Shown: positions 47,197 through 62,351 of the stretch, one piece after another
Layout: each line of letters starts with the position of its first letter
Position numbering within the stretch: the first letter of the stretch is position 1
The notes under the pieces: generated by a model
The model's input: the letters and a program-made list of their open reading frames with translations, nothing else
Databases searched by the model: none
What the model was told of the DNA's origin: nothing
Made by a program: the position numbers and the translations under genes
NCBI RefSeq assembly: GCF_022448905.1
Contig: NZ_JAKVCW010000002.1
Location: 186,001-250,000 of the forward strand
Source of the DNA: Shimia sp.
Lineage (GTDB): Bacteria; Pseudomonadota; Alphaproteobacteria; Rhodobacterales; Rhodobacteraceae
Reading direction: 5' to 3'
Length of the DNA stretch: 64,000 nt

Positions 47197-47250
47197 TGGC
47201 GCGGTTGACGGGGCTCGAACCCGCGACCCCCGGCGTGACAGGCCGGTACT
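47197..47250 (-). pseudogene. 5'-truncated tRNA-Asp copy
   Basis: 54 bases identical to the 3' part of the intact tRNA-Asp (3' CCA through the T arm, variable loop, anticodon arm and the start of the D stem), after which the sequence changes abruptly at 47251. The identity extends one base beyond CCA. The D arm and 5' acceptor strand are missing, so it cannot be a working tRNA. It is either the remains of a tandem tRNA-Asp pair after a deletion or an attachment-site scar. Confidence 0.9.
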
Positions 47251-47340
47251 GGCAGACTCCCGCGTAGAGTGCTTTGCGCGCTGAATTTTTTGTGATTAGA
47301 TGCGCTTACTCGATTCAATTGCTTTTGAAGGAATAACCCG

Positions 47341-58029: not shown

Positions 58030-58144
58030 CGATCCTCCTTTGCCTGTTGGTCCGCCCTAGCCTCCAAGGGCTCGCAAAGGCCGCGTCACTAAACGCACAG
58101 AACGTGCACCACGGGACACATTGGCACTGGGGACGAAGACAGGC

Positions 58145-61100
58145 ATGAAGATTCAACGACGTTTCACCAAGACCGGACAAGACGCTTACGCAGATCTGGA
58201 CTTCGTCACCACCGAATCTGAAATTCGCAACCCGGACGGCACCATCGTCTTCCACCTCGATGACATCGAAGTTCCGGCCAGTTGGTCGCAAGTGGCCTCC
58301 GATGTGATTGCCCAGAAATACTTCCGCAAAGCCGGGGTTCCCGCCAAACTGCGCAAGGTGCGCGAAAAAGGCGTGCCAGAATTCCTGTGGCGCTCCGTGC
58401 CTGCCAACGAAGACGTCACCATTGGCGGCGAAACCAGCGCCAAGCAGGTGTTTGATCGCCTCGCCGGGGCTTGGACCTATTGGGGCTGGAAAGGTGGCTA
58501 CTTCTCCACAGAAGACGACGCCCGCGCCTACTTTGACGAAATGCGCTACATGCTGGCGACCCAGCGCGCCGCGCCCAACTCGCCCCAGTGGTTCAACACC
58601 GGCCTGCACTGGGCCTACGGCATCGATGGCCCATCGCAGGGCCACTACTATGTCGACTACAAAACCGGCAAGCTGACCAAATCCAAGTCCGCCTACGAAC
58701 ACCCACAACCGCACGCCTGCTTCATTCAGTCCGTGGCGGATGATCTGGTGGGCGAAGGCGGCATCATGGACCTCTGGGTCCGCGAAGCCCGCCTGTTCAA
58801 ATACGGCTCCGGCACCGGCACCAACTTCTCATCCCTGCGCGCAGATGGCGAATCTCTCTCCGGCGGAGGCAAATCTTCCGGCCTTATGGGCTTCCTGAAA
58901 ATCGGCGACCGCGCTGCAGGTGCGATCAAATCCGGTGGCACCACCCGCCGCGCGGCCAAGATGGTCATTGTCGACGCCGATCACCCGGACATCGAAGAAT
59001 ACATCAACTGGAAGGTCAAAGAAGAGCAGAAGGTGGCCTCCATCGTGGCCGGCTCCAAAATGCACGAACAGAAGCTCAACGGCATCTTTGACGCGATCAA
59101 AGCTTGGGACGGTGCTGAGGCAGACGCCTATGACGCCAAGACCAACGACGGTCTGAAATCCGCGATCCGCGACGCCAAAAAGTCGATGATCCCGGAGACC
59201 TACATCAAGCGCGTGCTGGACTACGCCAAGCAGGGCTACGCCAGCATTGAGTTCCCGACCTACGACACCGACTGGGATTCTGAAGCCTACGCGTCTGTCT
59301 CCGGGCAGAACTCCAACAACTCCATCCGCGTCACCGACGCCTTCCTCAAGGCCGTGGAAAACGACGACGATTGGGAGCTGATCCGCCGCACCGACGGCGA
59401 GGTCGCCAAAACCATCAAAGCCCGCAAACTCTGGGAAGACGTCGGCCACGCCGCATGGGCCTGTGCCGATCCCGGCATCCAGTACCACGACACTGTGAAC
59501 GCGTGGCACACCTGCCCTGAGGATGGTGAAATCCGCGGCTCCAACCCGTGCTCCGAATACATGTTCCTGGACGACACGGCCTGTAACCTCGCCTCCATGA
59601 ACCTGCTGTCCTTTCTCAAGGACGGTGTGTTCCAGGCGGACGACTACATGCACGCCACCCGTCTCTGGACCGTGACACTGGAAATCTCCGTGACCATGGC
59701 GCAGTTCCCCTCCAAGGAAATTGCCCAACTGTCTTATGACTTCCGTACCCTTGGCCTGGGCTACGCCAACATCGGCGGCCTGCTGATGAACATGGGCTAC
59801 GGCTACGACAGCGACGAAGGCCGTGCCCTCGGCGGCGCTCTCACCGCGCTGATGACCGGTGTCGCCTATGCCACCTCTGCCGAAATGGCCGGCGAACTGG
59901 GCGCCTTTGACGGGTATGCGCGCAACAGCGAACACATGCTGCGGGTCATCCGCAACCACCGCCGCGCGGCCCAAGGCCTGACCTCCGGCTACGAAGGCCT
60001 CGCCGTGAAACCTGTGCCGTTAGACACCGAAAACTGCCCAGATCAGGTGCTGGTCGAACTGGCCAAATCCGCCTGGGATGAAGCCCTCGAGCTTGGTGAG
60101 AAAAACGGCTACCGCAACGCCCAAACCTCTGTGATCGCCCCCACCGGCACCATCGGCCTGGTGATGGACTGTGACACCACCGGCATCGAGCCTGACTTCG
60201 CACTGGTGAAGTTCAAGAAACTCGCCGGAGGCGGCTACTTCAAAATCATCAACCGCTCCGTGCCTGCAGCCTTGGAAGGCCTCGGCTATTCTTCTGCTCA
60301 GATCGAAGAAATCGTGTCCTACGCAGTGGGCCACGGCACCATCGGCAACGCGCCAGGCATCAACCACACGTCTTTGATCGGTCACGGTTTCACGACCAAC
60401 GAGATCGAAAAGATCGAAGCCGCGCTTGGCTCCGCCTTCGACATTCGCTTTGTGTTCAACCAGTGGACGTTGGGCGAAGAGTTCTGCACCAACGTCCTCG
60501 GTATCCCGGCAGACAAGCTGAACGATCCGTCCTTTGAACTGCTCGCACACCTTGGCTACACCAAAGCCGACATCGATCTGGCCAACGACCACGTCTGCGG
60601 CACCATGACCTTGGAAGGCGCCCCGCATCTCAAAGAAGAGCACTACGCGATCTTTGACTGTGCCAACCCATGCGGCAAAAAAGGCAAACGCTACCTCTCG
60701 GTGGACAGCCACATCACCATGATGGCCGCCGCGCAGTCCTTCATCTCCGGCGCGATCTCCAAGACGATCAACATGCCAAACGATGCCACCATCGAGGACT
60801 GCCAGAAGGCGTACGAGCTGTCCTGGTCCCTCGGCATCAAAGCCAACGCGCTCTATCGTGACGGCTCCAAACTGTCCCAACCTCTAGCCGCTGCACTGGT
60901 CGAGGACGATGACGAGGCCGCCGAAGTGCTCGAATCCGGCTCCATGCAGGAAAAAGCACAGGTTCTGGCCGAAAAGATCGTCGAGAAAATCGTCGTCAAA
61001 GAAGTGGCCCGTGGCCGCGAGAAAATGCCGGAACGCCGCAAAGGCTACACTCAGAAAGCTGTTGTGGGCGGCCACAAGGTATACCTGCGCACCGGCGAAT

Positions 61101-61810
61101 ACTCTGACGGCTCCTTGGGCGAAATCTTCATCGACATGCACAAGGAAGGCGCTGGCTTCCGCGCGATGATGAACAACTTCGCCATCGCCGTCTCGGTTGG
61201 CCTGCAATACGGCGTCCCGCTTGAAGAATTTGTCGATGCCTTTACCTTCACCAAATTTGAACCTGCCGGCATGGTGCAGGGCAACGACTCCATCAAAAAC
61301 GCCACCTCGATCCTCGATTACATCTTCCGCGAATTGGCCGTGTCTTACCTCGACCGCACCGATCTTGCGCACATCAAGCCAGAAGGCACCACGTTTGACG
61401 ATGTTGGACGTGGCGAGGAAGAAGGCGTTTCCAACGTGTCCGAACTGTCCGACACCGCCGCGACTCGCTCGCTTGAGGTCCTGAAACAGATCTCCTCCAC
61501 CGGCTATTTGCGCAAGCGCCTGCCCCAGGAACTGGTCGTTCTGAACGGCGGCGGCAACATTTCTGTGGATAACTCGGACGCTGTGAAAAATCTGGCCACT
61601 TTGGTGCCGGAAACCGCTGGCGCGACCGTATCAGACGTGGCAACAAGCGCCTCCGTCACGGCAGCTGTGGCCCCGATGGATGAACGGGCCAAGGCCAAGA
61701 TGCAGGGGTATGAGGGAGACCCCTGTGGCGATTGCGGCAACTACACGCTGGTGCGCAACGGCACCTGCATGAAATGCAACACCTGCGGCGCCACCTCGGG
61801 CTGCAGCTAA
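58145..61810 (+). CDS. nrdJ: vitamin B12-dependent (class II) ribonucleotide reductase
   Basis: 1221 aa from the ATG at 58145 ([20 protein letters not shown]). Reduces ribonucleotides to deoxyribonucleotides with adenosylcobalamin, with or without oxygen. Landmarks: substrate-side Cys in [31 protein letters not shown], the active-site loop [20 protein letters not shown] (Cys and Glu), [18 protein letters not shown], and the C-terminal redox tail with Cys pairs ([21 protein letters not shown]). Length is typical of the long alphaproteobacterial form. The long leader carries NrdR/DnaA-like sites. A 63-aa gene follows at 10 bases. Confidence 0.96.
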
Positions 61811-61820
61811 GGAGAAAACC

Positions 61821-62012
61821 GTGACGAAGCGCAGAAGCCTTCTGTCTGAAGAAGACCAAAGCCACGCAACCACCGACACATTGGTGGGCACCATCCGCAT
61901 CAGCGGCGACTGGGCCCGCAAAGTCCGTGGTGAAACCGATGCCCCTGCCCCGCAGGCGGCCAACGACGACTACGCCGAACATCAGCTCTTTGCCGCGCGC
62001 AAAAGCTCCTGA
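61821..62012 (+). CDS. small protein cotranscribed with nrdJ (63 aa)
   Basis: GTG start at 61821 with AAGGAGAAAACC directly before it, 10 bases after the nrdJ stop. Sequence MTKRRSLLSEEDQSHATTDT, then LVGTIRISGDWARKVRGE and an Ala/Asp-rich tail. Soluble, no Cys, no recognised domain. Co-transcription with nrdJ is very likely, so it may be a partner or simply a conserved passenger. Confidence 0.72.
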   Translation: MTKRRSLLSEEDQSHATTDTLVGTIRISGDWARKVRGETDAPAPQAANDDYAEHQLFAARKSS

Positions 62013-62045
62013 TCGGCGCCTCAAGATCCCGGGGGGACCTGGGTA

Positions 62046-62226
62046 GGGGGCCTCGGCCCCCGACGACATAACCCGCTGCCGTCCCTACTCACTGGCAGCG
62101 GCGTTCCACGGAGCGGGTGCGCTCGCTCCGACGACATTCAGGCCGCAGGCAAAAAACATCGAGCGGTAACATAGAGTGAGCCTGAATGGCGAAACTGGGG
62201 GGCCCCGACGGCCCCCCATTTTTTTT
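62046..62226 (+). ncRNA. structured five-hairpin RNA candidate ending in a strong terminator
   Basis: Five consecutive stems are visible: P1 GGGGGC/GCCCCC (62046-62061), P2 CCGCTGCC/GGCAGCGG (62073-62101), P3 CGGAGCG/CGCTCCG (62109-62130), P4 CATTCAGGC (62135-62143) with GCCTGAATG (62180-62188), and P5 TGGGGGGCC/GGCCCCCCA (62196-62218) followed by eight T. The motif GACGACAT directly follows P1 (62062-62069) and P3 (62130-62137). There is no convincing ORF inside. It could be a processed 3' UTR of nrdJ, a small RNA with its own promoter, or a leader element of the DUF3179 gene at 62352. P5 alone is a certain terminator. Confidence 0.55.
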
Positions 62227-62351
62227 GCGCTGGCGTCCAACCGGGCACAAATCTTTCAATCAACTCACTTTCTCCTGAACCAAGTTGATTGGCGCGCGCC
62301 TTCCGTCCTCGGCCACAAAGAAGCACCAGCCCTTTGAGCCAAGGACCGATC

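Follow-up and report, generated by a model that had tools for sequence, protein, structure and literature searches.

Among the closest described systems to the RNA element considered here are the small RNAs (sRNAs) of Rhodobacter sphaeroides that, like it, lie 3' of a coding gene, namely SorX, PcrX, CcsR1-4 and UdsB/C/D/H. The text parts of PMC8625941 covered here place 16 sRNAs of this species in 3' UTRs and predict RNase E for eleven of the 5' ends, and they describe UdsB and others as combining an RNase E 5' end with a terminator 3' end, both by prediction. The parents named in these parts are ompR1, the puf operon and ccaF1, the comparison with the present element being one of descriptions, and the terms 'nrd' and 'ribonucleotide' are absent from the main text of the paper. 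StsR (RSs0827), also from R. sphaeroides, is a small RNA of the same order as the element; in the covered parts of PMC8307010 and PMC8625941 it is a 72-nt orphan under RpoHI/RpoHII control that pairs with UpsM, and by this description it is set apart from the element, which has ~117 nt and lies behind nrdJ.

Structured RNAs that, like the element, are reported from Rhodobacterales only include HRC-8-4 and uORFC-8-2 (Brewer et al. 2021) and the SAM/SAH riboswitch (Weinberg et al. 2010), which according to the covered parts of PMC8632094 and PMC2864571 occur mainly in the ccoP-ccoG gap, upstream of cysS and upstream of metK. The L17 downstream element (Weinberg et al. 2010), in the covered parts of PMC2864571, has a conserved structure and lies in the potential 3' UTR of one gene, but by description that gene is other than nrdJ. 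PMC8632094 presents two genome-8 motifs in the text parts covered, and PMC4809877 reports 30 trans-sRNAs of R. pomeroyi, its covered text parts carrying no coordinates. An RNA behind nrdJ is not described in the covered text of PMC4809877, PMC8632094, PMC5107571, PMC8307010, PMC8625941 or PMC2864571, nor in the literature listings. We found no precedent for the sequence family, whose kind would be that of the 3'-UTR-derived small RNAs and which may have been detected earlier in supplements.

The element lies in the window, i.e. the whole 64,000-nt stretch of Shimia sp. DNA that was analysed. We propose, with moderate confidence, that it is a structured small RNA with which the nrdJ transcription unit of Rhodobacterales ends and which is released as a trans-acting, 3'-UTR-derived sRNA. 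It represents a well-supported RNA family, spread in abundant marine bacteria and tied to the gene of the B12-dependent ribonucleotide reductase; if the RNA is trans-acting, DNA precursor supply and vitamin B12 use would be linked to other roseobacter genes.

Architecture and conserved part of the element

The features of the locus are collected in Table 1. The product of nrdJ matches NCBIfam NF005736 with 2228 bits (cut-off 1737) and TIGR02504 (NrdJ_Z) with 563 (cut-off 400). The small ORF behind it has no Pfam match and gave a tblastn match in two of eight other genus loci. The next downstream gene in the window encodes a DUF3179 protein; among 106 loci it was found in own loci only and in none of the relatives', and in a separate set in one of eight genus loci.

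Table 1. Positions in the window of nrdJ, the small ORF behind it and the parts of the RNA element
Feature	Position	Strand	Basis or remark
nrdJ, vitamin-B12-dependent ribonucleotide reductase	58121..61810	+	ORF and NCBIfam; start codon TTG as listed, unrefined
63-aa ORF, between nrdJ and RNA	61821..62012	+	ORF list
Hairpin P1	62046..62061	+	MFE fold; GACGA next
Hairpin P2	62070..62105	+	MFE fold; variable
H1 (P3 of the original prediction), 8 bp, UGCG loop	62110..62129	+	covariation
Long stem (P4), 5' arm	62132..62143	+	covariation
Apical loop of long stem	62144..62179	+	near-invariant CGCAGGCA, G(A/G)GCGGU, GAG
Long stem (P4), 3' arm	62180..62191	+	covariation
Linker AAACT ahead of terminator	62192..62196	+	conserved in alignment
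Intrinsic terminator (P5), T8 tail	62196..62226	+	fold, terminator scan

The original prediction had described five consecutive hairpins, two of them followed by the same octamer, with a 9-bp pairing in P4 and a terminator as P5, and as a description of the window this is borne out by the sequence and its MFE fold. The octamer GACGACAT stands at 62062-62069 and again at 62130-62137; the core of P4 pairs 62135-62143 with 62180-62188, and the family alignment adds two pairs, 62132-62133 with 62190-62191, past an A.G mismatch. The last G of the loop's GAG is paired, and the stem of P5 covers 62196-62218, followed by T at 62219-62226. On the + strand the region 62030-62240 folds better than its shuffles (z -3.25, one of 200 as good), more so than on the - strand (z -1.54, 13 of 200 as good).

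As a single element, the five hairpins did not hold together, since P3-P5 alone are kept beyond the genus according to blastn and the genus alignment. When 61990-62240 was compared by blastn with 149 family genomes (its own included), 82 matched, once each, and the matches mostly start at query positions ~115-126 or 148-151 and end at 207-245, which lies within window positions 62104-62234; the single earlier start besides the genome's own is at query position 104. These extents indicate a conserved unit that begins at P3 and ends at the terminator. Judged from sequence, the conserved part is approximately 62108-62226 (~117 nt), with P3-P5 retained beyond the genus and P1/P2 at genus level at most. 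P1 with its trailing GACGA is kept in all nine aligned genus members, and by eye the alignment of the wider family does not show it in this form; P2 differs in sequence among genus members and is absent in two of the nine. Of the first octamer copy, GACGA alone is kept in the nine genus members, window included, the variants being GACGACAT in four, GACGAGAT and GACGAAAC in two each and GACGAATT in one; the CAT of the second copy is part of the P4 stem and is mostly CGT in the wider family. The octamer pair is thus weak evidence.

Compensatory changes in relatives, whose absence had been set beforehand as a refuting result, were found in two alignments. Thirty sequences aligned with MAFFT have 99.5% of cells paired under the structure derived from them by RNAalifold and by hand, against 32-47% in a slid-partner control, and seven of 22 pairs show double changes; when 75 loci, divergent ones among them, were aligned by the covariance model R1, 97.8% of cells are paired, 17 of 22 pairs have double changes and 108 double-change cells stand against a shuffled mean of 13.8, both controls leaning towards the structure because it was drawn from the same sequences or the alignment was fitted to it. 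Double changes occur in all eight pairs of H1 and nine of the 11 pairs of the long stem among the 75 sequences (three of eight and four of 11 in the MAFFT alignment). By this comparative evidence, both stems are kept by paired mutations and belong to a real structured RNA common to the family. At one position of H1, 63 of the 72 sequences that have letters there show a G-U pair; read from the opposite strand this would be A.C, a mismatch, so the transcribed strand is that of nrdJ.

The loop of the long stem holds near-invariant bases: in the 75 sequences, identity is 95% or more at the positions CGCAGGCA, CG.GC, GU and GAG, some of which are predicted as partly paired. Two candidate structures were considered here and rejected. 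A 3-bp CGC/GCG helix inside the loop has no double changes and is unpaired in eight of 216 cells with letters among the 75 sequences. The string GCC...GGCGAAAC is, by eye, suggestive of what we take to be a hammerhead-like core; the bases preceding it vary, and it is the long stem that covaries instead.

Rfam 15, at gathering thresholds over the whole window, returned tRNAs only and nothing at the element; at E up to 5, the region 62000-62300 gave five matches, all far below gathering, and 19 of the 29 relatives' loci gave none at the element. The expectation that the element is unlike SRP RNA, tmRNA, RNase P RNA and 6S RNA therefore stands, since no Rfam match was found at the site, and two of the identities originally offered, a new small RNA or a product of the nrdJ 3' UTR, fit the evidence.

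Distribution and position behind nrdJ

R1 matched 93 of the 149 family genomes sampled and 207 of 292 genomes of the order, once each in 206 of the 207 and twice in the remaining genome, G206; the order sample overlaps the family sample, and its 227 listed genomes are all of the window's own family, the other 65 being genomes without a match. A class-wide sample under stricter filters gave matches in five of 385 genomes, all five of the same family, and the 20 genomes listed among the 380 without a match are all of other families. An exact pattern scan of named genomes, which is no census, found at least 119 loci, of which 113 are from Rhodobacterales (NCBI's Roseobacteraceae and Paracoccaceae included), three from unclassified Alphaproteobacteria and three from others; 115 of them match the model R2 (77/80 and 38/39), and the four that do not are the three others and L273 (Sedimentitalea).

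Not every genome with nrdJ carries the element. R1 matched nothing in 48 genomes that have nrdJ. In their 3' flanks, a few of which are short or cut, R2 found eight more elements; the remaining flanks showed none, and in L151 the element is degenerate by eye. This leaves 40 of 140 nrdJ-bearing genomes without a model match (39 if L151 is counted), so the element is dispensable. Nine genomes lack an nrdJ match, and eight of them, several being incomplete, also lack the element. A tree of nrdJ C-termini has 85 rows, 54 with the element (one degenerate) and 31 without; the former comprise 45 carrier loci and nine later ones, and of the 48 genomes that R1 did not match, 40 are represented. The tree is poorly resolved, with seven starred inner branches among 82 and a bootstrap that did not settle, and takes 17 gain or loss changes by parsimony, at least three of them forced, with carriers on both sides of a well supported 100/99 deep branch. 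The tree suits, short of proof, an old element lost several times, whose gain is not datable.

Where the element occurs, its place is nearly fixed. Of the 93 family carriers 92 also show nrdJ, and in 91 of these the element lies 9-700 nt behind it on the same strand (median gap 109 nt over all 92); G078 ends at a contig edge. A terminator survey covered 162 elements in 160 loci, 14 being set aside for want of a same-strand nrdJ end in the stretch, and the other 148 include some repeats of one place. A strict scan found a terminator behind 135 of the 148 and ahead of the first element in L008 and L205 alone, apparently one genome, and since the elements' own terminators escaped it in 13 of 148 cases it may also miss terminators in between. 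As a terminator was almost never found between the two, the nrdJ transcript most likely ends with the element. For 24 of these 148 the element starts 6-25 nt behind the nrdJ stop codon, which leaves little room for a promoter outside nrdJ. Two marks of 3'-UTR sRNAs are present here, a same-strand position behind a coding gene and the use of the parent's terminator with none detected in between.

Copies away from the end of nrdJ occur in three cases. In G010 the element and nrdJ are 111,822 nt apart, and the genes upstream of the element (EamA) are on the opposite strand; by eye, nrdJ itself is trailed by a different terminator-like hairpin, and a sigma-70-type scan, other promoter types lying outside it, found no promoter; in its genus mate G237 the element is still behind nrdJ. 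In L220 (uncultured Sulfitobacter, 2117-2904) there are three tandem copies behind nrdJ, the third degenerate, and copies 2-3 stand behind the terminator of copy 1. G206 has two copies, ~37 kb apart if its contig is circular, and the second, diverged one (within L160 3154-6288) has genes with Pfam TniQ and TniB matches ahead of it and follows a terminator-like hairpin behind tniQ. These copies speak for a role outside the nrdJ message.

Copy 2 of L220 resembles, by eye, the second copy of G206. If the G206 contig is circular, tandem copies behind nrdJ may there have been split by the insertion of a Tn7/Tn5053-like element, the site being possibly an attachment site. Separately, G237 has a 313-aa ORF without a Pfam match directly behind nrdJ and ahead of the RNA (L288 2385-3326).

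Proposed function and competing readings

Conservation, stems, strand, position, terminator and occasional copies away from nrdJ are computed features of the element; its processing, its action in trans and its partner are what we infer from them. We read it as a 3'-UTR sRNA because of its position, strand, terminator and loop conservation. Transcription would continue past nrdJ, across any small gene that follows, and stop at the element's terminator, and an endonuclease, probably RNase E, would cut just upstream of H1. H1 would then cap the new 5' end and the terminator would shield the 3' end, so that the released RNA could display its near-invariant loop (CGCAGGCA ... GRGCGGU ... GAG) on the covarying stem. 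It may act in trans by pairing with mRNA or through a protein such as Hfq, and its dose would track nrdJ expression. In size the conserved loop exceeds a usual seed, and it would also suit the binding of a protein or ligand. This processing model does not account for the G010 copy or the later L220 copies, which need a promoter of their own or read-through.

A search for targets used two short patterns complementary to the loop in 13 genus genomes, with the pattern read backwards as control, and contexts read by eye gave no evident target. TTACCGCTCGA occurred 18 times against 26 for its control. TTTTGCCTGCGG occurred 58 times against seven, an excess that we take as a codon effect, as the control ignores codons; of the 29 contexts read, seven are the element itself and 22 lie elsewhere, by eye many of them coding-like and two (L352, L358) terminator-like.

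The first alternative to a released sRNA is an element that acts in cis, its hairpins and terminator ending or stabilising the nrdJ mRNA, or setting its decay, with no separate RNA ever made. The near-fixed place behind nrdJ and the apparent use as transcript terminator are as this reading expects, but near-invariant loop bases would be superfluous in a plain stabiliser, the relocated copy of G010 and the later copies of L220 by the simplest reading end no nrdJ message, and in G237 and the window nrdJ is separated from the element by another ORF. We consider it unlikely. The displaced copies (G010, copies 2-3 of L220, copy 2 of G206) would be natural for an orphan sRNA gene that lies inside the nrdJ 3' end or in the gap, has a promoter of its own, and has nrdJ as a mere neighbour. 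Against this, no promoter consensus was found in G010 within the sigma-70-type scan, other types being uncovered, no conserved block stands upstream of H1 in the alignment as judged by eye, and the element stays behind nrdJ in 91 of 92 genomes; such a gene is in our view doubtful, ranking after a cis-acting role.

A composite of sensing and regulation was also considered, in which the element is a 3'-UTR sensor-regulator of deoxynucleotide supply whose loop binds a ligand or protein reporting cobalamin or nucleotide status and so sets the release of the RNA or the lifetime of the nrdJ message. If true, this would tie the B12-dependent reductase into wider cell physiology; we regard it as improbable. 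Hardly better placed is an element that only senses, riboswitch-like or autoregulatory, with the loop as an aptamer for, e.g., a nucleotide, cobalamin or a protein. The many near-invariant loop bases on a stem that is free to change are suggestive of this and go no further, and the element lies behind nrdJ, not ahead of it as a riboswitch leader would; the one downstream gene surveyed, that of the DUF3179 protein, is not kept, so no fixed downstream gene was seen, and Rfam gave no match, the cobalamin riboswitch included, all of which makes pure sensing quite improbable. A mobile hairpin repeat, the third identity originally offered, has on its side two GC-rich stems that share a trailing octamer, but it is scarcely credible for an element with one match in its own genome and one in each of 206 of 207 positive genomes, at a fixed locus and with no match in plasmid or phage collections.

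The Rfam searches also gave two observations away from the element. PYLIS_3 (RF02510, the mttB pyrrolysine insertion sequence) matched above gathering in three loci and just below it in a fourth (L010 2828-2926, -; L013 2437-2535, -; L016 437-536, +; L009 2051-2147, -), which perhaps reflects coding similarity of mttB relatives. In the window, a fourth match to the tRNA model lies at 47200-47263 on the - strand, scoring 29.3 against a gathering threshold of 29, beside three strong ones.
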